64,000 nucleotides of DNA from a gamma proteobacterium symbiont of Ctena orbiculata (GTDB taxonomy: Bacteria; Pseudomonadota; Gammaproteobacteria; Chromatiales; Chromatiaceae). The notes below the pieces were generated by a model, which made no database searches, was not told the origin of the DNA, and was given only the letters and a program-made list of their open reading frames with translations. Both the position numbers and the translations under genes were made by a program. Where the stretch lies: positions 1-64,000 of the forward strand of contig QBVD01000035.1 in assembly GCA_003058525.1 (NCBI GenBank), in the 5' to 3' direction. Of the stretch, positions 18,011 through 35,982 are shown one piece after another; positions within the stretch are counted from its first letter, which is position 1, and each line of letters opens with the position of its first letter.

Positions 18011-19072
18011 TCATAAATACTGGTCACGCAAGGCCGGATAGATCAGCTCCCCCATCGAGAGGTTGACCGCAGCCTTCAGGCACGGATCGTCCTGCCACCC
18101 TTCAAGCAGGCGTTTCAGATAGGGCATCATCGCCGCGGAGAGGGCTTGGCTGGCGCTCCTGGGCACCGCACCCGGCATATTCGTGACACAAAAGTGGGTC
18201 ACCCCATCCACCTGATAGCTCGGCTCCTCATAGGTCGTCGGGCGGGTAGTCTCGATGCACCCGCCCTGATCGACTGATATATCCACAACCACACTGCCCG
18301 CCTGCATCGTCGAAATCTGTTGGCGTGATATCAGATGCGGCGCTTTCGCTCCGGGAATCAATACCGCACCGATCAGCAGGTCGGCACTGGCAACCGCCTC
18401 ACTGATCGCATCCTGATAGGGATAGAGTGCAGTGACACTGTTGCCAAGTACCCGCATCGCGCCCATTTTATCCCTTAATCGATCAAACACCGTGACCCGG
18501 GCACCCACGGCAGCGGCAAGTTGGGCGGCATTGCCCCCCGCCTGACCGGCGCCCAATATCACCACATGACCCCGTTCCGCGGCTGGCAGGCCACCCAGCA
18601 ACAGCCCCCTGCCCCCATGCTGATGGTGTAACAGGGTAACGCCATTCTGTACCGCAATTCGACCGGCTATATCACTCATCGGGGCCAGAATCGGCAACCC
18701 TCCTCGGTCCGCCACCGTTTCAAAGGCGATGCCGGTGACGCCTGAATGTAAGAGACGCCGGGTCAATCCCTCATCCGCTGCCAGGTGGAGAAAGCAGAAC
18801 AGCAATTGCCCTTCCCGCAGCATCTCCGGCTCATTGTCATAGGGCTCCTTGACCTTCACTACCAGTTCGGCCTGCTGATAGATCGTCTCTGCATCGGACA
18901 CGATCTCCACCCCGGCCTTCTCATATGTCTGATCCGTGTAACCACTGGCGCTGCCCGCGCCCTGCTCCAGCAGCACCAGATGCCCTGCCTTGACCAACTC
19001 GCCGCAGGCCTCAGGGACCAAACCTACCCGTCCCTCAAGGGGCTTGATCTCTTTCGGTATGCCGATTTTCAT
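18011..19072 (-). CDS. ald: Alanine dehydrogenase
   Basis: About 353 residues; NAD-dependent conversion of L-alanine to pyruvate and ammonia. The key positions are visible: Arg in EGRVGLVPE, Lys in LVVKVKEP, His in LFCFLHLAAD, and Asp in VDISVDQGG; the nucleotide-binding loop is GAGQAGGNAAQLAAAVGA. The ATG at 19072 is preferred because GAGAGA lies eight bases before it; one at 19078 would be too close. It is divergent from trxB. The protein is slightly shorter than the 371 residues common in the family. Confidence 0.93.
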   Translation of the reverse strand: MKIGIPKEIKPLEGRVGLVPEACGELVKAGHLVLLEQGAGSASGYTDQTYEKAGVEIVSDAETIYQQAELVVKVKEPYDNEPEMLREGQLLFCFLHLAADEGLTRRLLHSGVTGIAFETVADRGGLPILAPMSDIAGRIAVQNGVTLLHHQHGGRGLLLGGLPAAERGHVVILGAGQAGGNAAQLAAAVGARVTVFDRLRDKMGAMRVLGNSVTALYPYQDAISEAVASADLLIGAVLIPGAKAPHLISRQQISTMQAGSVVVDISVDQGGCIETTRPTTYEEPSYQVDGVTHFCVTNMPGAVPRSASQALSAAMMPYLKRLLEGWQDDPCLKAAVNLSMGELIYPALRDQYL

Positions 19073-19237
19073 TACCATATTCTCTCGATTCTTTACCCCG
19101 GAGGGATGATTACGTAGTATTCCCGCAATCCTGATTTATGTCTTGGATGCGGGTCACCGATTAAGGACGCGCAAGGCCAAGTCTTATTTAATATCGCCTG
19201 CCACACAACAAGCCGGGGCAGGCCTGAGCTGGAGTAA

Positions 19238-20209
<972 letters not shown>

Positions 20210-20220
20210 TATTAATGTCC

Positions 20221-20246
20221 GCAAATGAACGCTGATCAACGCAAAC
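20221..20246 (+). repeat. Dispersed repeat copy (consensus near GCRAATGAACGCYRATCAMC)
   Basis: The run starting GCAAATGAACGCTGATCA closely matches sequences at about 45464-45489 and, in inverse orientation, 45624-45659. This is one member of a short dispersed family. It overlaps the annotated start of the lipocalin gene, which supplies its first codons. Confidence 0.5.
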
Positions 20247-20806
20247 GGTTTTGTGTTGCGGTATCAGATATCTCAAGGCGTATTGTTTATCTGTTGGCTG
20301 TTTGTCTCGTACTGGCAAGCTGTACTCAGCTACCTCGAGGCATCCAGCCCATCAGCGGATTTGAAATCGACCGATATCTCGGCACATGGTATGAAATCGC
20401 ACGCCTGGACCATCGCTTTGAAAAAGGCCTTAATAATGTCACCGCCAACTACACGCTACGGAATGATGGCGGCATCAATGTAATCAACAGAGGATACGCT
20501 CCCAAGGATCAGGCATGGAAAGAGGCACAAGGCAAAGCATACTTTGTCGATGACAATCAAAAAGGCCATTTGCAGGTCTCGTTTTTCGGTCCTTTCTACA
20601 GCTCATATGTAATCTTCGAACTGGACAAGGACGACTACCAATACGCCTTTGTCAGTGGATACAACCGTGATTATCTTTGGCTACTGGCAAGAAAGCCCGG
20701 CATCGACAGAAAGATCATTAAACGTTTTCTTGATCACTCTAGATCGTTAGGTTTCGACACTAACGAAATCATCTTTGTCGATCATAGCCACTCATTCAAC
20801 AAGTAA
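20225..20806 (+). CDS. blc: Lipocalin-family outer-membrane lipoprotein (Blc-like)
   Basis: The 193-residue protein is a bacterial lipocalin. A signal with lipobox VLASC is followed by the family motif DRYLGTWYEIARLDHRFEKG and the beta strands FFGPFYSSYVIFELDKD and YAFVSGYNRDYLWLLARKP. Blc proteins bind fatty acids or lysophospholipids at the outer membrane. The only ATG is at 20225, it has no good ribosome-binding site and it falls inside a short dispersed repeat (20221-20246), so the true start may be different. It follows trxB by 15 bases. Confidence 0.88.
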   Translation: MNADQRKRFCVAVSDISRRIVYLLAVCLVLASCTQLPRGIQPISGFEIDRYLGTWYEIARLDHRFEKGLNNVTANYTLRNDGGINVINRGYAPKDQAWKEAQGKAYFVDDNQKGHLQVSFFGPFYSSYVIFELDKDDYQYAFVSGYNRDYLWLLARKPGIDRKIIKRFLDHSRSLGFDTNEIIFVDHSHSFNK

Positions 20807-21160
20807 TGAGCCTGCCGCTATAATCACGCTTTAAATCGGTTATCTTGAATATCGATCTCTAAACAAAAATATAGCGCTTCCTTACAACATGCAGATCATG
20901 ATGGCTATCCCGACTTCAAGACACCCCCCTAGGGCCTAAGTACACTAATCCGGCTAAATAATTCGGTTTGCTTCCGGACTCATTAGGCAGCTTTATTGAC
21001 TACCATCATCGATAAAAACATTTCAGGTCAAACCTATCATTTAAACAATGTTTTGGTGATATGCCTCATTGCCAACCTAATAGTTAAAAAGTTATTGTCA
21101 GATTGTTGGTATCCAATGTGATATCAATATCATGTGATTACAACAGCCAGGAGGATAGCA
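20807..21160. other. Intergenic region before the HAF-repeat gene
   Basis: No gene is supported in these 354 bases. It is AT-rich and contains a CTAGGGCCTAAG run at about 20930 that resembles the short motif seen after several stop codons elsewhere in the window, and two copies of ATGTGAT about 20 bases apart near 21115-21136. A promoter for the HAF gene is expected here, but I cannot place it. Confidence 0.4.
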
Positions 21161-22552
21161 ATGAATAAGTCACTCTCTGCGTTGATGCTTGCAATATTCC
21201 TAGGCAATAGCTTTGTACAGGCTGAGATAGTTATAACCGATATACAAGCCGTAGATTTAGGCACATTGCCTGGTGGAACCTCCAGCATTGCACACGACAT
21301 AAATGAGTTTGGAAACATAGTCGGTCGCAGCGATACCCTATCAGGTGAAATCCATGCCTTCTATCTCCCTACAGGAGGCGTGATGCAAGACCTTGGTACA
21401 CTGACTGATGGTGATTCCAGTGTTGCGCTTGGCCTGAATGACGACGACCAGATTGTCGGTCGTTCGAATATCTTGAATCCAATAACGAGTGATTTAGTCA
21501 ATCACGGTTTTATTTGGGAAACTGGTGTGATGCGTGATCTGGGTGCCTTTCCACCCCAAGACGACATCAACTCCAGCAGCACCGCGACTGCAATCAATAA
21601 CAGTGGGTTGATCTCGGGCAGTGTGGATCTGGCCGGGGTGGTTTGGGACCTGAACGGCACACCTAATTATCCCCCCTTTCCGCCTTATGTAAGAGTCACG
21701 GATCCTGGTCCGTTCAGCCCCGCGAACACGGAAGATATCAATCATGCGGGACAAGCGGTAGGCACACTTGTTTCCTTTATAACGGGATTCCGTTGGCAGG
21801 CAGGCACATTAGAAACTCTCGTACATTTACAACCGGGGCTCGACACCGATGCCTATGGAATCAACGAACTGGGTGAGATCGCAGGACGCGCACTCGTTGG
21901 GCCGCCTATCTACTCTCATGCAGTCTATTGGCCTGAACCGATAACAGTGATCGATCTGGGAACGCTTGGGGGCGACAATAGTGAAGCGCGTGATATCAAT
22001 GATGACAGGGTAATCGTCGGCCACAGCGACACGGCCAGCGGAGAAACGGTAGCATTCATCTGGCATACCGATTTTGGCATGCAATCACTTGGTACACTAG
22101 GTGGCGCAAACAGTAAAGCCTACGCCATCAATTCCACAGGACAGATTGTCGGTGAAAGCGAGACCGCAACAGGAGAGATTCACGCCACACTATGGAATGT
22201 CAGCTATGCCACCAGCGTCCTGATTGATATCAAACCCCACAATATGAAGAACCCGGTCAATCCTCGCTCCAAAGGCAAACTCAAAGTCGCTATTCTGACA
22301 ACCGATGATTTTGACGCCAGCATGGTAAACATTGACTCCATTCGATTCGGTCCAGACGGCGCCGAAGCCGTGCAAAGCCGAGTTAAAGACTTCGACCATG
22401 ACGGCGACTGGGATTTGGTTTTCAAGGTAAAAACAGGTGAAACAGGCATTGCCTGCGATGACACGGAAGCAACTCTATCGGCCCAAACCCTGGATGGTGA
22501 TCCCGTAACAGGTACAGACTCCATCAAAACGGTCGGTTGTAATAAAAAATAA
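21161..22552 (+). CDS. Exported HAF-repeat protein with C-terminal calcium-loop domain
   Basis: About 463 residues from the ATG at 21161, which has AGGAGG six bases upstream; the signal peptide ends near SFVQA. The middle contains at least six HAF-type repeats of the form DLGTLGG-(N/T)S-A-DIN-x-x-x-x-IVG-S-(D/E)T-x-(T/S)GE-x-(H/V)AF. Such repeats probably form a beta-propeller-like extracellular fold. The last 115 residues are a separate domain with IDIKPHNMKNPVNPRSKGKL and a calcium-binding-like DFDHDGDWD. Function unknown. It stands alone and ends at a hairpin. Confidence 0.78.
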   Translation: MNKSLSALMLAIFLGNSFVQAEIVITDIQAVDLGTLPGGTSSIAHDINEFGNIVGRSDTLSGEIHAFYLPTGGVMQDLGTLTDGDSSVALGLNDDDQIVGRSNILNPITSDLVNHGFIWETGVMRDLGAFPPQDDINSSSTATAINNSGLISGSVDLAGVVWDLNGTPNYPPFPPYVRVTDPGPFSPANTEDINHAGQAVGTLVSFITGFRWQAGTLETLVHLQPGLDTDAYGINELGEIAGRALVGPPIYSHAVYWPEPITVIDLGTLGGDNSEARDINDDRVIVGHSDTASGETVAFIWHTDFGMQSLGTLGGANSKAYAINSTGQIVGESETATGEIHATLWNVSYATSVLIDIKPHNMKNPVNPRSKGKLKVAILTTDDFDASMVNIDSIRFGPDGAEAVQSRVKDFDHDGDWDLVFKVKTGETGIACDDTEATLSAQTLDGDPVTGTDSIKTVGCNKK

Positions 22553-22575
22553 CCACCCGTCCAGTGAATAGCATT

Positions 22576-22599
22576 ACAGGCGACCCTTAGGTCGCCTGT
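22576..22599 (+). terminator. Probable terminator hairpin after the HAF-repeat gene
   Basis: A perfect 10-bp stem ACAGGCGACC/GGTCGCCTGT with a CTTA loop begins 24 bases after the stop. The following sequence is only moderately T-rich (CATTTTATTA about ten bases on), so it is a likely but not textbook rho-independent terminator. The symmetric stem could also serve the convergent yjbQ transcript. Confidence 0.55.
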
Positions 22600-22860
22600 C
22601 CTATCCACGCATTTTATTATCCATAGAACAAAAAAGTCTAGTTACTTAGATAGTTGCCTTTACATGTGAATATGTAACATCGCAGCAGTTAAATCGGTCA
22701 CTGCCCAGTGCTTCAGCAAAACCAAAATTTATTACTACGCGGATGCCATAAACCCGAATTACCTGGCAGATCATGGAATCGAGTACCCACAGGTGTTACT
22801 AAAATCGGAGTCCTAGTTTATAAAACAGATATGTATCCTTTTAGCGCTAGGATGTGTTCA
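22600..22860. other. Intergenic region between two convergent genes
   Basis: No gene, RNA or clear repeat is visible in this stretch between the hairpin and the end of yjbQ. It is AT-rich. Confidence 0.4.
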
Positions 22861-23268
22861 TCATATTTCTGACACTATTGTACAGACAACCCTACGGTCA
22901 CTCCTTGGCCCATCGAACTCGCAGAAGAAGATATTCTGCCAGCGTGAAAGACCCAGTTTGCCATCGATAATCGGGATGGTCTCGGATGGTCCAACCAGGC
23001 CCGCTTTGAGGTGACTGTCCCCATTGCCGTCCTGGGCGTCGTGCAGCCAGACGCCCTGCGGGATCATCTTGCGCAGCAGGTTGACCACATCGGTCTGCAC
23101 ACTCTGGTCCCAGTTCTCCTGGATCATGATCGCCGCCGTTGCACCTTGCGCGTAGACATTCACCAATCCCTGTTCAATACCGCTGTGTGCCAGCACTCGT
23201 TCAACCTGGTCTGTGATATCGACTAAAGTCTCGCGTTTGTCGGTCTGTAAATGAATCGTCTCACCCAT
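22861..23268 (-). CDS. YjbQ/UPF0047 family protein
   Basis: The 135-residue product carries the UPF0047 signature: ITDQVERVLAHSGIEQGLVN, then GNGDSHLKAGLVGPSETIPI and WQNIFFCEFDGPR. YjbQ of E. coli has weak thiamine-phosphate synthase activity and the cellular role of the family is unclear. The gene is convergent with the HAF gene and divergent from the sigma-54 operon, with about 570 bases between it and the operon's first gene. Confidence 0.92.
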   Translation of the reverse strand: MGETIHLQTDKRETLVDITDQVERVLAHSGIEQGLVNVYAQGATAAIMIQENWDQSVQTDVVNLLRKMIPQGVWLHDAQDGNGDSHLKAGLVGPSETIPIIDGKLGLSRWQNIFFCEFDGPRSDRRVVCTIVSEI

Positions 23269-23655
23269 ACCCGTTTCTCACCCGCTGTTCGCTGAGATTA
23301 AATATCCCATCCAATGTTCCTGCTACCAATTTTGTCAGAAAAAAGTCCGATGCCCGATTTCTACCGCGTAATTGACTCTCCGTGAATAGAGGCTGTTTAC
23401 AAGCTGCTCAGGTGGTCTAATCATACAAGGCTTGGCGTCGATCTGTATTCTTGCACCAACAGTCGCCCGCTCATCACATTTTTCGGTACGCCAAATTGGC
23501 ATATTTTTTTTCTTTTGATAACAAACGGTTATCAACAAGCGCATCATTCAACCAGACAATTTGTCAGGTTCAGCCATTGGCCGGCACTTGTCGAAAATAA
23601 CTATCGATAATTTTTTATCAAAATAAACAATAGGATATCGAACCAACTCGCAGAA
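23269..23655. other. Long AT-rich regulatory region upstream of the respiratory operon
   Basis: I see no credible gene here; a 70-codon minus-strand open frame lacks a ribosome-binding site and family resemblance. The part from about 23560 to 23655 is strongly AT-rich with runs of A and T (for example ATAATTTTTTATCAAAATAA), as expected for DNA bending or activator binding upstream of a sigma-54 promoter. No specific enhancer-binding site is identified. Confidence 0.4.
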
Positions 23656-23671
23656 TGGCACAGGGATTGCT
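23656..23671 (+). promoter_or_regulatory. Sigma-54 (RpoN) promoter of the respiratory operon
   Basis: TGGCAC-AGGGA-TTGCT matches the -24/-12 consensus TGGCAC-N5-TTGC(A/T) at every position, with 11 bases from the second G of the -24 GG to the G of the -12 GC. It points toward the small Tat protein gene, whose start is about 170 bases downstream. Such promoters need an AAA+ enhancer-binding protein, so expression of the module is expected to be switched on by a specific signal. Confidence 0.78.
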
Positions 23672-23841
23672 CATACTGTTGAGATCGGCTTGCACATCCG
23701 ACACACAACCGCTGTAAAAAAAATTAACGCGATTGCAGTATTCCGCTTTTATTAAAGACAACACTTCACCGCCGCCGATTGCCGCTGATCGGTATAGCGG
23801 AATGTATTGACAGTTTTGAAACAGGCCAAGAGGTAATTCAG

Positions 23842-24177
23842 ATGTTTAAAAGATGGATCATACCGCTGCAAAGATGGCTGTTCGGAGTAACTGAAAATCA
23901 ACAGCACACCCGGTTGGACAGTTCAGATGAGCCGGATACTACCCGCAGACGTTTTTTCAAGCAGGCAGCCATCAGTACGGTGAGCATCGCCGGCACCGCA
24001 GGCCTGGCCAAGACTGCCGTTGATTCCATGCCTCAACCTGACTTGCGACAGCGATATAACAAAGACGCCGTTAAGGGTGAAGAAGAACTCCTGCAACGGG
24101 AATATGTGCTTATGACCGACCAGGAAAAGGACGCAATGGTGCAGTCATTCGTCGATACCTACAACAAAGAATCCTGA
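23842..24177 (+). CDS. Small Tat-exported protein related to the N-terminus of the next Fe-S subunit
   Basis: The 111-residue protein starts at the ATG at 23842 (GAGG nine bases upstream). A twin-arginine signal TTRRRFFKQAAISTVSIAG directs it through Tat. The short mature part ends REYVLMTDQEKDAMVQSFVD. That tail resembles YRLMTDEEKKEAIDRLE in the N-terminal part of the following ferredoxin subunit, which also has a Tat signal; the two look like paralogues, with the iron-sulfur domain absent here. No cysteine or cofactor motif is present. It is the first gene of the operon and may be an assembly or escort factor, which is inference. Confidence 0.72.
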   Translation: MFKRWIIPLQRWLFGVTENQQHTRLDSSDEPDTTRRRFFKQAAISTVSIAGTAGLAKTAVDSMPQPDLRQRYNKDAVKGEEELLQREYVLMTDQEKDAMVQSFVDTYNKES

Positions 24178-24230
24178 TCATCAAGAGATTGTTCCAGTCT
24201 ATCCGATAGCCACTCGATCTGAGGACAACC

Positions 24231-25259
24231 ATGCCCAAACAAGAAGAGAGCAAAGAAAACGATAGCAAACCCACCACCCGCCGTGATTTTCTGCGCAGTG
24301 CGGGCAACTACACGGTGGCATCACTATCCGGCGCGGCGATGCTGCTGTCCGATCCCAAACCGGCGAAAGCGAATGTCACATGGGCGGAACATTTCCAGAA
24401 AAACTATCGGCTAATGACAGATGAGGAAAAAAAGGAGGCTATCGACCGCCTCGAAACCCGTTATTCAGAGGAATACGGCAAAAAAGTCATCGTCGACGAT
24501 GCACCCTCAATGGAGGGTGTTTTGTTTGGATATGCGCTCAATATACAGAAATGCATCGGTTGCCGTCGGTGTGTCAAGGCCTGCGTGGCGGAGAACAACC
24601 AATCCCGTGGCGACGAACAGCAGATCGAGTGGATTCGCGTGTTACGCATGGAAAAGGGAAATTTTACCGAGGCAGGCAGGGATCAACACGGTTACCCGGA
24701 TGCATACGGCGTTCAGGTCGGCGGCAACGCCTACAAACCCGCGGGAGTGGTGCTGGAAGGCCAGCACTATTATGAACCGGAACAGGTGCCGGAAAAGGAC
24801 GCCTTCTACTTTCCCATGCAATGCATGCAGTGTGAGAAACCTCCCTGTGTCAAGGTCTGTCCGGTACGTACCACCTATCGTGATCCCGACGGCATCGTGG
24901 TTATCGATTACAACTGGTGTATCGGCTGTCGCATGTGCATCGGCGCCTGTCCCTATTGGGCCCGGCGCTTCAATTGGGGCGAACCCAATCTGCCGAAGGA
25001 AGAGATGAATCCCAATACCCACTATCTTGGCAATCGCCCGCGTATGAAAGGTGTTGTCGAGAAATGCAGCTTCTGTATCCAGCGTACCCGCAAAGGCCGC
25101 TGGACTGCTTGTGTCGAGGTATGTCCTGTCGGTGCCCGTAAGTTCGGCAATCTTTTGGATCCGAACAGTGAAATCCGCAAAGTCCTGGCAAACAAGAAAG
25201 TGTTCCGCCTGCGGGCCGACCTCAATACCTATCCCAAGTTTTTCTATTTCATGGATTAA
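24231..25259 (+). CDS. Tat-exported ferredoxin-like subunit with four [4Fe-4S] clusters (DsrO/NrfC-like)
   Basis: The 342-residue protein has a Tat signal (TTRRDFLRSAGNYTVASL) and four cysteine sets: CIGCRRCVKAC, CMQCEKPPCVKVCP, CIGCRMCIGACP, and CSFCIQRTRKGRWTACVEVCP. This is the electron-transfer subunit of CISM-type complexes (relatives DsrO, NrfC, PsrB, TtrB), placed on the periplasmic side by its Tat signal. It should pass electrons between the membrane NrfD-like partner encoded next and the multihaem cytochrome. An insert of about 60 residues (EAGRDQHGYPDAYG) separates cluster sets 1 and 2. The exact complex is not known. Confidence 0.88.
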   Translation: MPKQEESKENDSKPTTRRDFLRSAGNYTVASLSGAAMLLSDPKPAKANVTWAEHFQKNYRLMTDEEKKEAIDRLETRYSEEYGKKVIVDDAPSMEGVLFGYALNIQKCIGCRRCVKACVAENNQSRGDEQQIEWIRVLRMEKGNFTEAGRDQHGYPDAYGVQVGGNAYKPAGVVLEGQHYYEPEQVPEKDAFYFPMQCMQCEKPPCVKVCPVRTTYRDPDGIVVIDYNWCIGCRMCIGACPYWARRFNWGEPNLPKEEMNPNTHYLGNRPRMKGVVEKCSFCIQRTRKGRWTACVEVCPVGARKFGNLLDPNSEIRKVLANKKVFRLRADLNTYPKFFYFMD

Positions 25260-25270
25260 GGGGAGATCTC

Positions 25271-26527
25271 ATGATGCGCTTTTTTCAATTCGTGGTCGAT
25301 TTCCTGCGGGCAGGTTTCACCGGGGGCATCCTGTTCTGGTCCTGGATGCTTTTCCTGGCCTTTTTCATCATGCTCTGGGGATACGGGGAGTATGTCCAGA
25401 TCGCCAATGGCATGATCGTCACCAACCTCAACGATCAGGTCAGCTGGGGGTTCTACCTGGCCAATTTCGTGTTCATGGTCGGTGTGGCGGCAGCTGCGGT
25501 AACCGTAGTATTTCCGGCCTATGTCTATAAACACAAAGAGTTGCACCGCATTGTGATACTTGGCGAAATGCTCGCCATTGCTGCGGTGGTGATGTGTCTG
25601 CTTTTCGTCGTTGCGCATATGGGTAGACCGGACCGCCTGTGGCATATCTTCCCGGTGATTGGCATTTTCAACTGGCCCCATGCCATGCTGACATGGGATG
25701 TTATCGTGCTCAGCGGTTACCTGCTGCTCAATATCATCGGCGGTTTCTACTACCTGTACAAAAAATATGCCGGCACTGAGGTCAACAAGGCCTTCTATCT
25801 GCCGATCGTCTATATCGCCATTGTCTGGGCATTGAGTATCCATACGGTTACGGCATTCCTGATCAACACCATGCCGGCGCGTCCGATGTGGTTCCACTCG
25901 ATGATGCCGATCAAGTTCATCACCACGGCGTTTGCCGCGGGCCCTTCGCTGATCATCATCGTGTTCCTTCTGGTGCGCCGTTTCACACCCATGAAGATTG
26001 CCGATGAGGCCTTCCACCTCCTTTCCCAGATTGTCGTCTGGTGTCTCGGCATAGCACTGTTTCTGACAATGTCGGAGATAGTCACTGAACTCTATCCCGC
26101 CACCGAGCACTCCCTGGGTCTGCAATATCTGATGTTTGGGCACAATGGCCTGAACAGCCTGGTGCCCTATTTCTGGACTGCACTATCCCTGATGGTGGGC
26201 TCATTCGTGCTGTTGCTGATACCCAGGATCAGAAAAAACCTGACTCTCCTGCCCATCATCTGTTTCGCTGCCTTTATCGGCATCTGGATCGAAAAAGGTA
26301 TGGGCTTGATGCTGCCAGGCGTGATCCCGACACCCATTGGCGAGTTCGCAGAATATACACCGAGCCATATTGAACTCATGGTTGTCGGCGGTGTGTGGGC
26401 AATCGGTTTTTTCATGCTTACCTTCATGCTTAAAGGTGCGGTCGCGGTACTGCTGGGAGAAGTCCGCTACCAAACACCGGTAAGCGAGCAACCTATTACA
26501 GGCGAACAGACCGAAGCAACAACTTGA
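25271..26527 (+). CDS. NrfD/DsrP-like quinone-interacting membrane subunit
   Basis: A 418-residue integral membrane protein with about ten hydrophobic segments, in the larger DsrP/HmeB-like branch of the NrfD family. The segment VSWGFYLANFVFMVGVAAAA followed by VFPAYVYKHKELHR is typical of that branch, as is PHAMLTWDVIVLSGYLLLN. Such subunits exchange electrons with the quinone pool through an Fe-S partner, without haem. It starts 11 bases after the Fe-S gene (GGGGAGA upstream). It belongs with the preceding subunit, forming a DsrOP-like pair. Confidence 0.88.
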   Translation: MMRFFQFVVDFLRAGFTGGILFWSWMLFLAFFIMLWGYGEYVQIANGMIVTNLNDQVSWGFYLANFVFMVGVAAAAVTVVFPAYVYKHKELHRIVILGEMLAIAAVVMCLLFVVAHMGRPDRLWHIFPVIGIFNWPHAMLTWDVIVLSGYLLLNIIGGFYYLYKKYAGTEVNKAFYLPIVYIAIVWALSIHTVTAFLINTMPARPMWFHSMMPIKFITTAFAAGPSLIIIVFLLVRRFTPMKIADEAFHLLSQIVVWCLGIALFLTMSEIVTELYPATEHSLGLQYLMFGHNGLNSLVPYFWTALSLMVGSFVLLLIPRIRKNLTLLPIICFAAFIGIWIEKGMGLMLPGVIPTPIGEFAEYTPSHIELMVVGGVWAIGFFMLTFMLKGAVAVLLGEVRYQTPVSEQPITGEQTEATT

Positions 26528-26576
26528 CCTTGTGACTCATGGATTGTGCGGACCATATCGATTTGGAGAAAAAACG

Positions 26577-27386
26577 ATGACGAGCTATCGAAACCATCTG
26601 TCTATTTTGGGTCTCTGCTTGCTGGCGGTTATGTCGATCAAGTCCGCAATCGGCACTGAGGCTCAGGATGGCAACGAGTGCTTCGAAAGCCGGGACGGCA
26701 TGTCACAGGTCATTTCACATGAAACAGCACCTGGGATGATGAATGTGAAATGCTCCCCCGCTACAGGTGGCGTGTTGTGGTGGGGAGACCCTTTCGAAGG
26801 CACTATCCCTATGGGTCACATGGATATAGAAGCGGATTACTTTCATGAAGAGGCTGTGGTGAAACCCCGTGAACCGCAAATTGACAGGAACAAACTGCTG
26901 ACGATATGCAGTATGGCCTGCCACAACGGTGAATATGTTCCGATCCCGTACAACAAGGATCCCCGCCCGTTGAAGATGCATCTGGACATTATTCCTGACG
27001 CCATGAACCTCAAGCATGGCAAAGGAGGCGTCTGGTGTCTTGATTGTCACCACTTGGTCGACCGCACCAAGCTGATCGACAATTTTGGCTATTCGATCAG
27101 CTTCAATCAGCCGCAAAAACTCTGCGGCAAGTGTCACGGTCAGGTCTATCGTGCCTGGCGCGACGGAATCCACGGTAAGCGAATCGGCATGTGGGACAAG
27201 GGCGGCAAAAAACGCTGGTGGGTCTGTACTGAATGTCACAACCCGCATGATGTTGAACAGGCAGGGAGAAATTCCGGCTTTGCTCAATTGCGGCCGGAAC
27301 CGGCGCCAAACCTGCCAAAGGGGATGACGAATGCGGATCACGAAAGGATGCACCATGGCCCAATCCAAAGTGAAGAACCTCATTAA
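26577..27386 (+). CDS. Periplasmic multihaem cytochrome c (three CXXCH plus one CX3CH)
   Basis: About 269 residues from the ATG at 26577 (GGAG eight bases upstream), with a signal peptide ending near SAIGTEA. Canonical haem sites are CLDCH at 154-158, CGKCH at 183-187 and CTECH at 217-221. A fourth site, CSMACH at 111-116, has three residues between the cysteines. Additional histidines (for example at 135, 147, 159 and 199) could be distal ligands. It probably acts as the soluble or peripheral electron carrier for the NrfD-type complex encoded just upstream. It has two further cysteines (35 and 59) of unknown use. Family: multihaem cytochrome c of the NapC/NrfH-distant, DsrJ-unlike kind. Confidence 0.82.
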   Translation: MTSYRNHLSILGLCLLAVMSIKSAIGTEAQDGNECFESRDGMSQVISHETAPGMMNVKCSPATGGVLWWGDPFEGTIPMGHMDIEADYFHEEAVVKPREPQIDRNKLLTICSMACHNGEYVPIPYNKDPRPLKMHLDIIPDAMNLKHGKGGVWCLDCHHLVDRTKLIDNFGYSISFNQPQKLCGKCHGQVYRAWRDGIHGKRIGMWDKGGKKRWWVCTECHNPHDVEQAGRNSGFAQLRPEPAPNLPKGMTNADHERMHHGPIQSEEPH

Positions 27387-27498
27387 AAATGACTGCATCA
27401 CCAATATCCATATACAGCACAGGGCGTGATAAGGGATGTAAGAACTTATGCTCGTTCATTCACAGCGAGAGTAATGCTGATCAACGGAGAAGAGAACA

Positions 27499-28248
27499 GT
27501 GACAACCAGTTTCCAGAACAGAGAAAATGTCCGGCGACAGGCATTCGAATCGATCTGGGAAAGCCAGATCGATGCTGTGTTTTCAGATGTCGCAGCGGTC
27601 TATGACAAAGCCAACGACTTTGCCAGTCTCGGAACCCTGAATGGTCTGCGTCGCAGATTCATCGCCACCATTGACGTTTCACCTGGCCAACGGGTGCTCG
27701 ATGTGTGCGCCGGAACCAATGTGATCGGTATCGACCTGCTGAAAAAAGAGCCGAACCTTGATATCTACGCAGTCGATCGCAGTGATGCCATGCAGAAAGT
27801 CGGCAGCGATCGTGCCGCACGACAGGGTTTCGATATTAAAGGACATATCTGCGATGTGCATCGGTTGCCATTTCCCGACAACCATTTCGACGTGGTGACT
27901 TTACAATATGCAACACGTCATTTGCGTGTCATCGATGTTTTCTCAGAGATCAATCGGGTGCTTAAACCCGGGGGACACTTCTATCATTTCGACATGCTGA
28001 GGCCAGCCAACAAAATAATTGAAGAGGCTTATTGCCTCTATTTGCGGGGATGTCTAAAAACGATTTCCTGGGCCATCAGAGTCGGACCGGAAGCGAGAAA
28101 CTGCTGTGACTATTTTATTGATGCCATCCGTCTTTTCTACTCCACGGACGAGCTCTCTCGCCTGCTCTCTGAATTAGGTTTTTCAGACGTTATCGGCAAA
28201 CCCCTGCTGGGCGGTACTGTTGCGATACACAAAGCGTGCAAGCTTTAG
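27499..28248 (+). CDS. UbiE/MenG-like SAM-dependent methyltransferase
   Basis: The 249-residue protein starts at a GTG preceded by AACGGAGAAGAG. It has the class I methyltransferase motifs: VLDVCAGTNVIGIDLL for SAM binding, YAVDRSDAMQK for motif II, and DVVTLQYATRHLRVID with NRVLKPGGHFYHFDM. These, particularly the TRHLRVID and RVLKPGG segments, resemble UbiE/MenG quinone C-methyltransferases more than general enzymes. Its place between the multihaem cytochrome and a cytochrome c553 suggests that it modifies the quinone used by the complex, but this is inference. A housekeeping ubiE probably exists elsewhere. Confidence 0.75.
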   Translation: MTTSFQNRENVRRQAFESIWESQIDAVFSDVAAVYDKANDFASLGTLNGLRRRFIATIDVSPGQRVLDVCAGTNVIGIDLLKKEPNLDIYAVDRSDAMQKVGSDRAARQGFDIKGHICDVHRLPFPDNHFDVVTLQYATRHLRVIDVFSEINRVLKPGGHFYHFDMLRPANKIIEEAYCLYLRGCLKTISWAIRVGPEARNCCDYFIDAIRLFYSTDELSRLLSELGFSDVIGKPLLGGTVAIHKACKL

Positions 28249-28312
28249 CGGAGGGGTCTCATCCACAATCGGTCACTGACACATGCGCAGTTTCTTCTTG
28301 GGTAATGACATT

Positions 28313-28639
28313 ATGACAATTCATAACAGATTGATCACTTACATCGGCATCCTCGCCATCGCCCTGACGCCTTTTGCGGCACAGGCATTGGATGCGCCTG
28401 CTCTCTACCATGAACGTACTTGTATCGCATGCCACGGCGTAAACGGCAAAGAGCCGGTGATGGATGAATATCCTAAATTAGCCGGGCAACCACAACAGTA
28501 TCTTTTGACACAGATGAAAGATATAAAAAACGGATCGCGATCGAATGCCCACTCAATGGCCATGAAAAATGTAATGCACCTGATCAGTGATGAGGAGATG
28601 TCTGTACTGGCAGAATGGCTCGCGAAGATTCCCGAATAA
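28313..28639 (+). CDS. Cytochrome c553-like (single-haem, c4-type domain)
   Basis: About 108 residues from the ATG at 28313, with a signal ending near FAAQA. One haem site CIACHG lies near the N-terminus of the mature protein, followed by PKLAGQPQQYLLTQMKDIKN and a Met-rich segment (SMAMKNVMHLISDEEMSVL) that would supply the axial Met. This is the cytochrome c553/c4 type, a periplasmic electron carrier. A close paralogue lies at 29590-29922. An ATG 30 bases earlier has no ribosome-binding site. Confidence 0.85.
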   Translation: MTIHNRLITYIGILAIALTPFAAQALDAPALYHERTCIACHGVNGKEPVMDEYPKLAGQPQQYLLTQMKDIKNGSRSNAHSMAMKNVMHLISDEEMSVLAEWLAKIPE

Positions 28640-28677
28640 CCTTGTTTGCTGAATTCAAAGGGGGCAGATCGATGTGG

Positions 28678-29136
28678 TCAGCAACCCCAGGCCGCATCAA
28701 CCAGAGAGGCGATCTGTTTGTAATAGGCATCGCGATCCATACCAAGCACGGTGGCACCGAATATTTCTGCATCGTTTGCAGTGGCAAGATCGCCATAGTT
28801 AACCAGCACCAATTGATAGAGAATGAGCGCGGGTATATCGTCGTGTCGATTTTTGTAATAACTGTGCAACAAGATGGTGTAGCCATCCTCAGGATTATCA
28901 GAAATAGGCTCTGTTTTTGCGAACATGCCGGGTTCGATACCTTCCGATACAAACCTGATCTTAACGGGATAGCGAACCGATTTTCTATCTTCGAGCATGT
29001 TGAGCACCGTCCGATAATCGATTTCGTCACCGTAACGGGTTCGTATCTCTTTCGCCTTTTCAAGGGCATGCTGCGAAACCGCACTGTGAATAACCTTTCC
29101 CGCTCTTTTTTTAACCTTGGGTGTTTGTTGCGCCAT
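28678..29136 (-). CDS. Conserved-looking protein of unknown function
   Basis: The 152-residue product is not recognised. It has no signal peptide, a basic N-terminus (PKVKKRAGKVIHS), a mixed central part (RTRYGDEIDYRTVLNML) and a C-terminal alpha-rich half with ILYQLVLVNYGDLATANDAE. It is convergent with the cytochrome gene and divergent from the next gene, with about 40 bases between the two starts. It interrupts the plus-strand run and may be a regulatory or accessory insertion. Confidence 0.5.
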   Translation of the reverse strand: MAQQTPKVKKRAGKVIHSAVSQHALEKAKEIRTRYGDEIDYRTVLNMLEDRKSVRYPVKIRFVSEGIEPGMFAKTEPISDNPEDGYTILLHSYYKNRHDDIPALILYQLVLVNYGDLATANDAEIFGATVLGMDRDAYYKQIASLVDAAWGC

Positions 29137-29174
29137 GACAATAATATATTTGCTGTGATAACCAAGGATAGCCT

Positions 29175-29546
29175 ATGTCCGAATACTCACTGAAGTTTAG
29201 CGAAGATCCTATAGAGGAATCCAGACAACGCACCATCGATGAGATCCATCAATTTATCAGGTCGATGGATGGACGACCACTCGCAGTGGTAACCCTGGAC
29301 AATGAGCAGAGCGATCTTTGGGACTCGGAAGGAACGATCGACTACCAGGATATCTATGGAAGACAAATCATCAGTCAAATATCGGACGGCTCCACCGAAA
29401 CCCTGCTTATCCGTAATAATGAAGGGTTACCACTGGCGTTGGCGGCATTGAACAGTGTTGACGGCTGGCAGGGGATCGGCATCGAGAAGCGTTTGCGCTT
29501 TGAAGTGGCAAGGATGTTTCAGAATGATGAAACTGAATTCGAATGA
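29175..29546 (+). CDS. Protein of unknown function
   Basis: The 123-residue protein starts at an ATG with AAGGA six bases upstream. No signal peptide, cysteine cluster or known motif is visible. It is acidic and contains alternating predicted strands (RPLAVVTLDNE, ETLLIRNNEGLPLALAAL), as in a small alpha/beta fold. It precedes the second cytochrome c553 gene by 43 bases and is probably in the same transcript. Confidence 0.5.
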   Translation: MSEYSLKFSEDPIEESRQRTIDEIHQFIRSMDGRPLAVVTLDNEQSDLWDSEGTIDYQDIYGRQIISQISDGSTETLLIRNNEGLPLALAALNSVDGWQGIGIEKRLRFEVARMFQNDETEFE

Positions 29547-29589
29547 ACGAATACCTTCATACAATATTCCAGGCCGGGAGGTCATAAAG

Positions 29590-29922
29590 ATGAATAAATC
29601 GAGTTATACTGCGTTATATCTTTGCGGTCTCATTGCAACTATTCCGATATCCAGCGCATATGCCGAAACCGATGACATAGACAGTGCCAACCTCTACCTC
29701 GCCAAGGCATGTGCGGGATGCCACGGTGTTGATGGCCGCTCACCTGTGGACCCATACTATCCGAAGATCGCTGGACAGAATGAAGGTTACCTCTACAATC
29801 AATTGCGTGACATGAAGAACGGCAGCCGCAGCAACAGCCAATCGAATATTATGAAGGGTATCATGACAGCCGTCAGCGAAAAGGAGATGCGCGCAATCGC
29901 AGCATGGCTTGCGAAACAGTAG
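29590..29922 (+). CDS. Cytochrome c553-like (second paralogue)
   Basis: The 110-residue protein starts at the ATG at 29590, with GGGAGG eight bases upstream; a longer frame to 29455 has no such signal. It carries a signal peptide ending SSAYA, the haem site CAGCHG and the matching YYPKIAGQNEGYLYNQLRDM segment. It closely parallels the protein at 28313-28639: NGSRSN is identical, and both end with a W-LAK motif. It would serve as a periplasmic electron carrier, perhaps with a different partner or potential. Confidence 0.85.
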   Translation: MNKSSYTALYLCGLIATIPISSAYAETDDIDSANLYLAKACAGCHGVDGRSPVDPYYPKIAGQNEGYLYNQLRDMKNGSRSNSQSNIMKGIMTAVSEKEMRAIAAWLAKQ

Positions 29923-29983
29923 TCATGAGGGGTACTGCACCCCGCATACCAGAGCCGGGCAGCGGGAAGAGTGTTGATAGGCC

Positions 29984-30427
29984 TTAAGCGATTTCGCCGA
30001 AAAGATGTCGAATCGCTTTCCTATTGGTCCATGATGACGCCAAGCGAAGGGCTTGTGCATAGGAGACCCAGCGATATTCAGCATGTTCCTGCTGGTGAAG
30101 CCTGGGTTGCCGCCTGAAAGGCAACATCACCGCAAACCAGTGCTCGGTATTGGTGTGGGTGTTTGCCGCATAGCGTGAGCGCCAGGCGGGAAGGATGGGA
30201 AAGATCTCCTGACAGGCAAGATCGAACAAGGCCCCGCCAGCCATAATCCCGGTCTCCTCGAAGAGTTCCCGACGCGCAGCCTGGGCGGCGGATTCTCCCC
30301 ACTCCAGGCTACCGGTCACTGACTGCCAGAAATCCCCAGGGCGGGTTCGACGCAGCATCAATATATCACCCGCTGTGGTATAGACCACTACCAGGACCGA
30401 TTCGGGGCGTTTATTTGCTTTCTTCAC
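29984..30427 (-). CDS. nudB: Dihydroneopterin triphosphate diphosphatase (Nudix)
   Basis: A 147-residue Nudix hydrolase. The Nudix box [20 protein letters not shown] continues with TG, and the following segments ([27 protein letters not shown]) agree with NudB, which removes pyrophosphate from dihydroneopterin triphosphate in folate synthesis. It overlaps the end of aspS by 17 bases, the usual aspS-nudB pair. The NudB name rests mainly on that context and overall resemblance. Confidence 0.87.
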
Positions 30428-32198
30428 TAACCGGTTTTCTAACCCGGATCGAGAGTTCCCGCAACTGATCGGCGCCCACTTCCGAAGGTGCGGCGGTGAG
30501 CAGGCATGCCGCTGTCTGGGTCTTCGGGAAGGCCATCACTTCCCTGATCGAGGCGGAGTCGGTCAGCAACATGACCAGACGATCGAGACCGAAGGCCAGA
30601 CCACCGTGGGGTGGACAGCCGTATTGCAGGGCGGTCAACAGAAAGCCGAACTTCTCTTCGGCCTCATCTTCGCTGATCTCCAACAGCTCAAAGATCTTCT
30701 GCTGTACCTCCTGCTGGTGGATACGAATGGAACCACCACCCAGCTCAACACCGTTCATGACCATGTCGTAGGCCCGAGATTTACAGGCCCCGGGATTGCT
30801 CTCGAGCACATCGAGCTGATCCAGCTTGGGTGAGGTAAACGGGTGGTGCAAGGGTGTCCAGCGGTCGTGCTGCTCGTCCCATTCGAACATCGGGAAATCG
30901 ACCACCCAGAGTGGTTGCCACTCGCCCTGTAACAGTTCCAGGTCATGCCCCAACTTGACCCGCAGGGCTCCCAAGGATTCGTTCACCACATGGCGCTTGT
31001 CGGCACCAAAGAATATCAGGTCACCGTCTTCGGCAGCGGTACGTTGCAGTATCGCTTGGGCGACTTCATCCGGGAGGAACTTGAGAATTGGCGACTGCAA
31101 CCCCTCGACACCCTTGGCGATCTCATTGACCTTGATATAGGCCAGCCCCTTGGCGCCGTAGATCGCCACGAACTTAGTGTATTCATCGATCTGTTTACGG
31201 CTGAGGGAACTGCCCCCGGGCACCTTCAAGGCCGCCACACGGCCCTTGGGATCCTTCGCAGGACCGGAAAAGACCTTGAATTCGACCTCTTTCATCAGAT
31301 CCCGCAGATCCACCAACTCAAGGGGCACACGAAGGTCGGGACGATCCGATCCATAGCGCTCCATCGACTCGTCATAACTCATGCGCGGAAAGGGATTCGG
31401 CAGATCCACATCCAGTATCTCTTTATAGAGTTGACGAATCATCTCTTCATTGAGCTGGATGATTTCATCCTCATCGAGAAAAGAGGCCTCTATATCGAGC
31501 TGGGTAAACTCCGGCTGCCGGTCGGCACGCAAATCCTCATCGCGAAAACAGCGCACGATCTGATAGTAGCGATCCATTCCCGACATCATCAGCAGCTGCT
31601 TGAAGAGTTGTGGTGACTGAGGCAATGCAAAAAAGGAACCGGGGTGGGTACGGCTGGGGACCAGATAATCACGTGCGCCTTCGGGTGTCGCTTTGGTAAG
31701 CATCGGTGTTTCGATGTCCAGAAATCCGCTATCATCCAGGAAGCGACGCAACACCTGGGTAACCCGAGCCCTGGTGCGGATCTTCTCCAGCATCTCGGGA
31801 CGACGCAGATCGATGTAACGGTAGCGCAGACGTATCTCTTCCGAGGCGTTTTCATGTTCATCGAGCTGGAACGGCGGCGTTTCGGCACCATTCAGCACTT
31901 CCAGTTCCAACCCCAGGATCTCGATCTCGCCGGTGGGCAGATCGGGATTGACCGTACCTTCAGGCCTGGCTCTGACACGTCCTTTGATGCGCAGCACATA
32001 TTCATTGCGCACATGCTCGGCGACACTGAAAATATCCGGCAGGTCGGGATCGTAGACCACCTGAACAAGACCTTCCCGATCCCGCAGATCGATAAATATG
32101 ACCCCACCGTGATCCCGTCTTCGGTGTACCCAACCACAAAGTTCTACTTCCTGGTCGATATGAGAGCTGTTGATCTGTCCACAATAGTGACTGCGCAT
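30411..32198 (-). CDS. aspS: Aspartyl-tRNA synthetase, probably the non-discriminating type
   Basis: About 595 residues from the ATG at 32198, which has AGGA seven bases upstream (the extra 13 codons above it are unlikely). The bacterial layout is present: OB-fold anticodon domain, class II core with [20 protein letters not shown] and [23 protein letters not shown] insertion domain, and the C-terminal [20 protein letters not shown]. The anticodon domain reads [11 protein letters not shown] with His30, as in P. aeruginosa, where the enzyme charges both tRNA-Asp and tRNA-Asn. Downstream partner is nudB, upstream is DUF502. Confidence 0.95.
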
Positions 32199-32257
32199 GG
32201 AATATTCCTGTGAGAATCCGCGATATTGATCCGGCAACCGGCTAAAAGGCGGGAATG

Positions 32258-32884
32258 TTACGGCTTGACCTCAGACTCTGCAAGCCCATCACCCGGATTG
32301 ACTGCACCCATGGAGAGGAGCATCTTCAATCCCTCATCGACACTCATATCCAATTCCCGTATATCTTCTTTCGGTACCAGCACAAAATAGCCGCCTGTCG
32401 GGTTTGGCGTGGTGGGTACATAGACGTTGACCACATCCCGGCCGGTCGCCTGCTGTACCGCCCCACCCTCTTCGCTGGTCAAAAAAGCCAGAGTCCAGAG
32501 CCCACGCCGGGGAAACTCGACCAAAACCACTTTGCGAAACGATTTGCCTTTGTCGGCAAACATGGTCTCTACCATCTGTTTGACAGCGGAGTAGATCGAC
32601 CTGACCAATGGAATCCGGGCCAGCAGCCCCTCCCACATGCTTACCACTTTTCGCCCGAATAGATTGGCGGCCACCAATCCGGTAAGGAGCAGAATCAGCA
32701 GGGAGAGCAGAACCCCCAGTCCCGGAATATGGAAACCGAACAGATTATCGGGGCGATAGGCCTCAGGCAGCAGTAATAGACTGGTGTCCATCCAGCTGAC
32801 CAGTAAATTGATGACAAGAAAGGTGGCCCCAAGGGGCAACCACACCAACAGTCCGGCCACCAGATAGCGGCGAAGAAAGCTCAT
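32258..32884 (-). CDS. DUF502 family membrane protein
   Basis: The 208-residue protein has two hydrophobic segments in the first 90 residues, then [19 protein letters not shown] and [19 protein letters not shown], which are the DUF502 hallmarks. The function of the family is unknown. In gammaproteobacteria it is regularly placed between fmdB and aspS, as here. Confidence 0.9.
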
Positions 32885-32903
32885 TTAACTATCCACCGGG
32901 TGC

Positions 32904-33188
32904 TTAATGGCACCCGCAGGAACCGCCACTGCAACTGGCCGGCTTGGTTTCACTCTTGGCAGCTTTCTTCTCACTGCCTTCGCCATCATGGACGTTTTTC
33001 TTACTCCCGTTCTTGAAATCGGTTTCATACCAACCGCTTCCCTTGAGATGGAAAGCGGCTGCAGAGATAACCTTCTTGAGGCTATCAGACTTACATTCCG
33101 GACATTCGGAAAGCGCTTGGTCACTCATTTTCTGGATGACTTCCAGCTGATGATCACAAGCCTCACAACGATATTCATAGATGGGCAT
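32904..33188 (-). CDS. FmdB family zinc-ribbon protein
   Basis: This protein of about 94 residues opens with MPIYEYRCEACDHQLEV followed by ECPECKSDSLKKVIS; the two CxxC pairs make a zinc ribbon of the FmdB/CxxC_CxxC_SSSS family. The C-terminus is basic and Ser-rich and ends in CSGGSCGCH, a further cysteine-rich tail. I use the second Met (33188), which fits the family start. Function unknown, possibly regulatory. It precedes DUF502 and aspS. Confidence 0.88.
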   Translation of the reverse strand: MPIYEYRCEACDHQLEVIQKMSDQALSECPECKSDSLKKVISAAAFHLKGSGWYETDFKNGSKKNVHDGEGSEKKAAKSETKPASCSGGSCGCH

Positions 33189-33435
33189 CACAGGTTCCTC
33201 AATCGTTCGGTTGCGGCGGTATCGATGGTATCAGCGCCGCTGAATCGGGGAATCCTACCATATTGGGGGTGATAAACGACATTTCAAGACCAAATTCCAC
33301 CTGACAATACCGTCGGACCGGTCTCTGCTCGAGCTCACACACGAGTGATTGTTTTGCGGTTTTACGCCGGAGAGTGGATACGGGCGGCAGAAAAGCGCCC
33401 AAAGTCATGCTCAATACACAGCCAGCAACGGCGAA

Positions 33436-34053
33436 TCAGTCGTTCTGCTGATCCAACTGTTCTCTACGTTGACGCAGCATCTCACCCTGGCGCCTTGTGA
33501 TGTGGCGGATCAAGGCATCCTGATCACTATTGCGGATCAGGGTGAAATTTATCCTGGTGTGGAAGGGATAGGCCGCATCTCCACCGATTGCCTCTTCGAT
33601 GCCAACCACCTCGCCGTAGGCCACCACACCGGTAAATGAGGGCAACAGCAGCAGCTTTATCTCAACCAGGTCACCCACTTCCAACTTCTCGGTGATATCC
33701 ATGGCGATGCCACCGGCACTCAGGTTAACCGAATGGGAGGGTCGATTCAGCAACTCATTTTCCTGTGCGAGGAAACTTTGTCCCAGTAAATTGATCTTGT
33801 CATCCAACGCCTTGAGATAGTCGGCTATATCAGGATCCCGCTGCTCGATACGGTGCAGGGGTGCGGACAGGTGCTGGCTGATGGTCTGTAGCCGGGTCAT
33901 TACGGTGAATCTGTCTGTCCCCTGCAATTTGTCATCGATGCTTTCAGGTAACTCATTCAGGGTGATCACACGATAGCTGACCTGTATCGAATCATCGATG
34001 CGAAAGAACTCTCTGCGTTCATCCTGTGTCATTGCCTTCTCATTCTTCGTCAT
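33436..34053 (-). CDS. PilZ-domain protein
   Basis: The 205-residue protein has RREFFRID near the N-terminus, which resembles the RxxxR c-di-GMP binding motif, and SVNLSAGGIAMDI further on, matching (D/N)xSxxG. Between them lies a helical stretch of about 80 residues. It probably binds cyclic di-GMP. It sits 26 bases after pomB in the same direction, so a link to motility or stator control is plausible. A GAGAGGAG sequence precedes the ATG. Confidence 0.8.
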   Translation of the reverse strand: MTKNEKAMTQDERREFFRIDDSIQVSYRVITLNELPESIDDKLQGTDRFTVMTRLQTISQHLSAPLHRIEQRDPDIADYLKALDDKINLLGQSFLAQENELLNRPSHSVNLSAGGIAMDITEKLEVGDLVEIKLLLLPSFTGVVAYGEVVGIEEAIGGDAAYPFHTRINFTLIRNSDQDALIRHITRRQGEMLRQRREQLDQQND

Positions 34054-34079
34054 CTATCAGCACTCCTCTCCAGCTTACA

Positions 34080-34964
34080 CTATTGTTCACTGGCCTTGAT
34101 CACCTCACCGCTATCCTCATCCTCACCACGCTGAATCACAAGCTCGACACGTCTGTTTGTCGCCCTGTTTTCACTCGTATCATTGACTACCAGTGGTTGT
34201 GAATCGGCATACCCCTGGATCAGAAAGCGACCTTCATCAATGGCCGCATTACTCAGCATGGCGTGCACCACAGTCACCGCCCGGGCAGACGAGAGCTCCC
34301 AATTCGAGCGAAAGCGCCGGGTGGAAATCGGAATGTTGTCAGTATGACCGGCAACAATGATCTTACCAGGCGTGTTGGCGATAACATCGGTTATTTTTGA
34401 GATCACTTCGAAGAAATCGGGGTTGAGAGTCGCCCGACCCGATGGAAATGAACCCTTTTCCTGGATGCGAATGATAATTTTTGTATCCTCCGTCTCCACA
34501 TCCAGCAATCCTTCCGAAATTTCGCCGTCCAGCATCTCCTGCAGCTCTTCTGCCTGCTCCTTGACCTCTTCCTCAATCTGAGCCTGCATCGCGGCCTTTG
34601 CCACGTCGATATCGAGATCCTGTTGCTCCTCAGCCTCGCTACGTTGATCCTCACTCTGCAGAAAATCCTTTTCCACATCCGTAGTCTGCTGGCGGAGCTC
34701 TTCTATCGGCGTCGGTTCCGGCTTTCCCGGGCTGAATTCCTGCATGACCACGCTGGTACCCTTGACGACGTCCATTACCGGGATTTCACGCTGGACACCG
34801 AAGGCATCCTTCATCGATTCGGCCATTTTCTTGAAACGTGCGGCATCGATCTCCGCGAAGGAGAGCAGCAAAACGAAGAAACACATCAGCAATGACATCA
34901 GATCGGCGAAGGTCGCCAACCACGGAGGAAGTCCGTCAGGGCATTTCGGGCATTCGTCCGCCAT
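34080..34964 (-). CDS. pomB: Flagellar stator protein MotB/PomB
   Basis: The 294-residue protein has one N-terminal membrane helix with the essential Asp (WLATFADLMSLLMCFFVLLL), a long charged linker with Gln/Glu-rich coiled-coil character, and a C-terminal OmpA-like peptidoglycan-binding domain (VAGHTDNIPISTRRFRSNWE, GYADSQPLVVN, NRRVELVI). It anchors the stator to the wall. It is paired with the MotA gene five bases upstream. The sodium-driven PomB assignment is by resemblance. Confidence 0.9.
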   Translation of the reverse strand: MADECPKCPDGLPPWLATFADLMSLLMCFFVLLLSFAEIDAARFKKMAESMKDAFGVQREIPVMDVVKGTSVVMQEFSPGKPEPTPIEELRQQTTDVEKDFLQSEDQRSEAEEQQDLDIDVAKAAMQAQIEEEVKEQAEELQEMLDGEISEGLLDVETEDTKIIIRIQEKGSFPSGRATLNPDFFEVISKITDVIANTPGKIIVAGHTDNIPISTRRFRSNWELSSARAVTVVHAMLSNAAIDEGRFLIQGYADSQPLVVNDTSENRATNRRVELVIQRGEDEDSGEVIKASEQ

Positions 34965-34968
34965 TTGG

Positions 34969-35727: not shown

Positions 35728-35982
35728 TTATTAGTTCTCCGAATCCCCGTTGCTTATTTATGCATCTTTGAAAAGCTGGCTGAGAGCAACCCGTCCCGGG
35801 TCGATCACAGGCGTTGCGCTAAGATTCCAATCTGTTTGTTTTAGCGGTAGGAAATTGGCAAACTTTAATTCCTCAAGGCCCTTAGGCGTTCACTCCGTAA
35901 GTCGTTTGAATCAGCATTGGATTGCTGCAAACCACGCTATCATGAGCAGAATCGTTACAAAAAATTTTACAATACCGCCCAT

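Follow-up and report, generated by a model that had tools for sequence, protein, structure and literature searches.

The window analyzed here, a 64,000-nucleotide stretch (contig QBVD01000035.1, positions 1 to 64,000) from a gammaproteobacterial symbiont of Ctena orbiculata, contains a gene cluster, hereafter the module, that probably codes for the quinol-oxidizing arm of a periplasmic DmsAB-like S- or N-oxide reductase encoded in the same genome and preceded by the same type of promoter. The module is organized in the order tatS, feS, nrfD, cyt, a methyltransferase gene, c1, orfm (on the minus strand), orfp, and c2 (Table 1), with a core trio of feS, nrfD, and cyt coding for an iron-sulfur (Fe-S) protein, an NrfD-type membrane protein, and a multiheme cytochrome. 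Gene content, synteny of the core, the separate NrfD clade, the shared promoter architecture, and contiguity with the reductase genes in relatives are all established by sequence comparison, and the assignment draws on these. The host genome, that of a sulfur oxidizer, is 4.74 Mb and closely related to those of Candidatus Thiodiazotropha, which live as symbionts in the gills of lucinid clams; the nearest named locus is that of Ca. T. endolucinida (L084), with a 98% identical cytochrome.

In the proposed mechanism, the Fe-S/NrfD/multiheme trio would act as a membrane quinol dehydrogenase, with NrfD oxidizing quinol near the periplasmic face and electrons passing through the four Fe-S clusters of the feS protein to the multiheme cytochrome, and then probably via the c553 cytochromes to the periplasmic DmsAB-like molybdoenzyme. 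Both operons are most likely turned on by the regulatory pair encoded next to the enzyme, a CXXCH-bearing sensor kinase and an NtrC-type regulator, acting through promoters of matching design, the regulator presumably binding an inverted repeat (dyad) upstream of a sigma-54 box. If this is correct, a DmsAB-type enzyme is fed by a detached NrfD/Fe-S/multiheme unit and not by DmsC, a new wiring for S- and N-oxide reduction. A literature search found no description of the module or of its link to the reductase, which is not proof of absence. A preliminary description of this DNA had read the cluster as an electron conduit from quinone to the periplasm, possibly for a separate reductase, and the comparisons below support that proposal.

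Partner reductase operon and promoter architecture

The partner operon, on contig C39, codes for a 94-amino-acid (aa) exported protein, a methionine-rich repeat protein, a five-heme cytochrome (cyt5), a DmsA-like molybdoenzyme, and a DmsB-like protein, followed by a TorD-like chaperone, a cytochrome c, and a ferredoxin-like protein. The methionine-rich protein is secreted and has 95 methionines in 348 residues counted from its likely start (27%); it precedes cyt5-dmsA in the gammaproteobacterial loci compared and is not seen in loci L270 to L274, of which L271 to L273 have genes that look poorly called. The DmsA-like and DmsB-like proteins score below their NCBIfam cut-offs (631.2 versus 777.7 and 190.1 versus 214.1), the closest solved relatives of the former are dimethyl sulfoxide (DMSO) and trimethylamine N-oxide reductases, and in the alignment the DmsA-like protein has a serine opposite the molybdenum-ligand serine of DorA. 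No DmsC- or NrfD-type gene was seen by eye around dmsA (L200, 3000-19000), the remaining genome not having been searched for DmsC. The response regulator in this genome is 86% identical to one beside the module in L088. The sensor kinase (L200:12180-14039) carries its CXXCH motif, a putative heme site, in the sensor part, which also resembles PF21563, a chemoreceptor sensor domain, in a weak match that does not reach the Pfam cut-off.

In three congeners (L267, L276, and L277), the module, the regulators, and the dmsA operon are contiguous, and a Propionivibrio metagenome-assembled genome (L270) has the order cyt5-dmsA-dmsB-torD-feS-nrfD-cyt-histidine kinase-response regulator, all on one strand. 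The preliminary description had treated the module as standing alone, without a catalytic subunit, and had named a molybdopterin gene in the same operon elsewhere as evidence that would speak against this; the contiguity in congeners, the molybdopterin gene in the Propionivibrio genome, and the promoter architecture shared with the C39 operon together speak against that view. Its local observation stands: the open reading frames (ORFs) of positions 19000-36000, read by eye with ten regional proteins also profile-scanned, showed no DsrMK or molybdopterin gene. Of the 21 genomes of the genus in the relatives set, 20 have dmsA, 16 of them together with the module and four alone, and the last lacks both; the identity of dmsA is at least 92% in every one of the 16, this genome included.

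The RpoN box upstream of tatS is one base off the consensus used, and a match as good turns up in 53 of 100 shuffled versions of the window, so by itself it is no better than chance. Control by sigma-54, as claimed in the preliminary description, is therefore predicted from the conserved sites and the dyad-plus-box architecture, and not from the box alone. A box scoring 9 to 11 of 12 precedes tatS in 14 of the 70 loci tested, all of them close relatives; in four loci of other lineages (L153, L154, L155, and L161) the box scores 9, with shuffle P values of 0.07 to 0.23. An alignment of upstream regions, for which 9 of 15 candidate sequences passed the filter (that of the window among them), reveals another conserved block besides the box, an inverted repeat close to CCTGACA-N3-TGTCAGG. 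With no more than one mismatch this repeat occurs at two places in the 4.74-Mb genome, before the module and at C39:42099, where it adjoins genes for a histidine kinase and a sigma-54 response regulator. On C39, the promoter of the reductase operon combines a box scoring 10 of 12 with a two-mismatch dyad, and in each of the two promoters of this kind in the genome, dyad and box lie 87 bases apart. With a -24/-12 box, a dyad farther upstream, and a sigma-54 activator encoded in the genome, the arrangement is consistent with NtrC-type control.

The same dyad-plus-box pattern has 27 matches in 14 of 22 genus genomes (own included), 13 of them before tatS-feS and 14 before the p94/Met-rich start of the reductase operon, with none elsewhere; the reversed pattern has a single match. 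Among the 14 reductase-start matches, one of which was read by hand on a contig that ends early, dmsA is on the same contig in seven, the contig breaks first in six, and in one (G506) dmsA was not looked for. Two genomes with dmsA only (L263 and L266) keep a box and a two-mismatch dyad 86 or 87 bases apart before the reductase operon, and the switch thus outlives the module.

The Fe-S/NrfD/cytochrome trio and accessory genes

The trio was compared across 80 loci, kept from 197 confirmed ones, whose record titles name gamma-, beta-, and deltaproteobacteria; ORFs were called with a custom script and not a gene finder, and high-GC loci may hold false ORFs. In 70 of the 80, feS, nrfD, and cyt follow one another directly on the same strand, with nrfD and cyt fused in four, and eight of the ten others begin near a contig end, judged by coordinates. 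The feS protein carries a twin-arginine motif and four 4Fe-4S motifs that comprise 16 cysteines, and nrfD matches PF03916 (E = 8.8e-33; 114.7 bits versus a cut-off of 25.8), both as the preliminary description had it. The multiheme nature of cyt is likewise confirmed, but a fourth motif had been missed: there are three CXXCH motifs and one CX3CH, an arrangement found in 66 of 76 family cytochromes, the other 10 having four CXXCH. Its structure model is of low confidence (predicted local distance difference test score [pLDDT], 38.9) and was not used.

NrfD proteins of the module form a clade of their own. In a tree of 79 proteins, with the clade sampled at 39 of 77 members, it is supported at 100/100 and lies apart from 26 DsrP1 and 8 DsrP2-like proteins. 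Residue 116, aligned to the residue described as protonating the quinone in the NrfD family (PMC8076601), is His in 39/39 of the clade and Asp in 26/26 DsrP1, 8/8 DsrP2-like, and 6/6 four-heme relatives. The window NrfD nonetheless scores 355.5 on the NCBIfam DsrP model NF045798, above the cut-off of 350, whereas the DsrP beside dsrO in the same genome scores only 63.6 bits; the score is an annotation trap, through which the trio may be misread as part of sulfate reduction. A dsr operon with dsrMKJOP is present elsewhere in the genome (L052, contig C102; genes named by eye), and cyt aligns with the DsrJ of this genome over 54 columns (probability, 81%). The DsrOP-like label of the preliminary description is thus apt as to relationship, but membership in a Dsr complex is rejected on the NrfD tree, the heme motifs, and the separate dsr operon.

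Other features are listed in Table 1; three genes (tatS, orfm, and orfp) were absent from the earlier gene list, whose remaining entries, including the two small cytochromes c, are all present. The tatS and feS proteins have a common MTDxEK motif. The methyltransferase matches TIGR01934 as a UbiE-like protein, under the cut-off (135.2 versus 158.35 bits); it was considered as a core gene and rejected, because 8 of 16 congeneric clusters (window and L034 to L048) lack it. Neither orfm nor orfp has a Pfam or NCBIfam match at E = 0.001, and the confident structure model of the orfm protein (pLDDT, 88.8) matches no solved fold in the PDB at E = 0.001 or better; the two families travel with c553 genes.

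Table 1. Features of the module and its upstream region in the window
Feature	Positions	Strand	Assignment and remarks
Inverted repeat CCAGACAATTTGTCAGG	23552..23568		Probable NtrC-type enhancer site; conserved block in upstream alignment
Sigma-54 -24/-12 box TGGCACAGGGATTGCT	23656..23671	+	Predicted from conservation and 87-base spacing from the dyad
tatS	23842..24177	+	111-aa Tat-signal protein; family in 32/80 loci
feS	24231..25259	+	Tat Fe-S subunit, DsrO/ActB-like, 342 aa
nrfD	25271..26527	+	NrfD-type quinone subunit, own clade
cyt	26577..27386	+	Exported multiheme cytochrome
UbiE-like methyltransferase	27499..28248	+	Accessory; family in 14/80 loci
c1	28283..28639	+	Monoheme cytochrome c553-like
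orfm	28678..29136	-	Conserved protein of unknown family
orfp	29175..29546	+	Conserved protein of unknown family
c2	29590..29922	+	Monoheme cytochrome c553-like

Related arrangements were seen in other loci. A sister kind of module (L050, L079, L080, L082, and L083) has a cytochrome with four CXXCH motifs; one cluster Cys is replaced by Tyr in four aligned sister-module feS proteins (L050, L079, L080, and L082), and Psr-like molybdoenzyme genes adjoin the sister module in L050, L080, and L083 (by eye). In Candidatus Nitricoxidireducens bremensis (L163), the trio is accompanied by p135 and hemerythrin-like genes (by eye), and the genome (G447) carries a DmsA-like enzyme at 78% identity.

Alternative roles and candidate substrate

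Several observations weigh against a dedicated link to the reductase or against parts of its proposed control and chemistry. Looser dyad matches are at background and mean nothing alone: when two mismatches are allowed, the long dyad has 13 places and its reversed form 9, and when one is allowed, the short dyad has 13 and its reversed form 15; most short-dyad places other than those of the window and C39 lack a box scoring at least 10 nearby in the short loci read. The dyad-plus-box pattern misses the module promoters of four genomes (G001, G003, G011, and G017), whose boxes read TGGA, and finds nothing in the five module-less genomes. Four congeners (G004, G006, G013, and G018) keep dmsA without the module, so the enzyme needs no module there, and co-occurrence within the genus is weak evidence because dmsA is in 20 of the 21 genomes. 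Among 47 wider module genomes, chosen from the 80 loci, the enzyme is present at 76% identity or more in 6 and only at 33 to 34% in 4, with none at E = 1e-60 in 37 (one of nine further genomes in the same search carries it); 41 of the 47 thus lack a close dmsA, and the trio therefore also serves other partners. A serine near the quinone pocket is described as strictly conserved in quinone-binding NrfD-family members (PMC8076601); it is Ala138 in the window NrfD, and at this position 60 of the 77 clade members have Ser and 17 Ala (Ala in 10 of the 39 in the tree sample).

The absence of a close dmsA from those 41 genomes also favors the strongest alternative, that the module, as a small version of alternative complex III, is a general quinol:cytochrome c oxidoreductase supplying the periplasmic cytochrome c pool, and that the reductase is only one among several users or is linked by regulation only. 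Monoheme cytochromes c recur beside the trio (some identified by eye), and alternative complex III provides the best solved relative of nrfD (subunit C; 6btm) and the fifth of feS (subunit B; also 6btm). In deltaproteobacterial loci L126, L132, and L134 the trio is near Rieske-, cytochrome b-, and cytochrome c-like genes (by eye), and in the L126 genome a cytochrome b gene is confirmed, with the same orientation as nrfD and ∼3 kb downstream of it. However, simple replacement of the bc1 complex is rejected, as a bc1-type cytochrome b is also present in 37 of the 47 module genomes, and in the genus the regulatory tie is specific to one reductase operon; a general role is accordingly rather unlikely, although it has more in its favor than what follows. 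Flow in the reverse direction, from periplasmic cytochromes c to the quinone pool, has precedent in Qrc and Nhc, which are described as pairing NrfD, Fe-S, and multiheme cytochrome subunits in that direction (PMC8076601), but it is improbable here, because shared control and contiguity with the reductase operon favor outward flow. Least probable is a stand-alone conduit to an extracellular acceptor, an option that the preliminary description had left open and for which the lack of a catalytic gene in the window cluster could be cited. Against it, the same promoter architecture precedes a partner reductase operon, and the loci that were read showed no porin-cytochrome gene, although no systematic search was made for one.

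If the module is the quinol-oxidizing arm of the DmsAB-like reductase, methionine sulfoxide is a real candidate substrate beside DMSO, whose respiration has been suggested for lucinid symbiont dmsAB, perhaps not these genes (PMC11237559). Precedents point this way: hypochlorite induces the gene for Escherichia coli DmsABC, an enzyme that reduces methionine sulfoxide (PMC12096835), protein-bound methionine sulfoxide is reduced by a DorA enzyme (PMC7402097), and perchlorate reducers have a periplasmic methionine-rich peptide with a methionine sulfoxide reductase (PMC4623255). So does a second methionine-rich protein in this genome, of the GMSGM type (54 methionines in 202 residues), whose gene faces one for a lipoprotein resembling an MsrA-MsrB fusion (L279:6625-8673; by eye); the short dyad and a weak box (9 of 12) lie upstream. 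It is possible, though doubtful, that the module powers respiratory methionine sulfoxide repair, in which the DmsAB-like enzyme would regenerate the secreted methionine-rich protein of its own operon as a sacrificial antioxidant, switched on by a heme sensor, in an animal symbiont exposed to host oxidants. Linking this electron feed to the methionine-rich protein and the putative heme-sensor/NtrC switch offers a testable idea of how a chemosynthetic clam symbiont may handle oxidants or alternative electron acceptors.

Comparison with known systems

The module resembles several characterized systems and coincides with none of those compared. Like DsrMKJOP, it combines a Tat Fe-S protein, an NrfD-type protein over the DsrP cut-off, and a small multiheme cytochrome; unlike it, the cluster lacks DsrM and DsrK, the cytochrome has four heme motifs and not the three CXXCH of DsrJ, and its NrfD stands apart from DsrP1 and DsrP2 with His116 in place of Asp. 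With alternative complex III it shares, beyond the solved relatives noted above, a likely flow from quinol to cytochrome c, but it has no large ActB with fused molybdoenzyme-like and Fe-S parts, it has one nrfD in place of two, and its cytochrome has four heme motifs compared with the five hemes described for that complex (PMC8076601). Qrc and Nhc of sulfate reducers also combine NrfD, Fe-S, and multiheme subunits, but are described with six and nine hemes, respectively (PMC8076601), and the expected electron direction differs; Qrc is further separated by the score of the window NrfD on the QrcD model (42.4 bits versus a cut-off of 570), while Nhc is set apart by heme number as described and not by sequence comparison.

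On the reductase side, the partner molybdoenzyme is DmsA-like and its Fe-S subunit DmsB-like, as in DmsABC and the DorA/TorA enzymes, but the operon adds a five-heme cytochrome and a methionine-rich protein and has no DmsC in the region read. The MrpX/YedYZ system of perchlorate reducers likewise pairs a methionine-rich peptide with a periplasmic methionine sulfoxide reductase (PMC4623255), but it uses another enzyme family and another electron feed, and is controlled by SigF/NrsF in contrast to the predicted sigma-54/NtrC control here.

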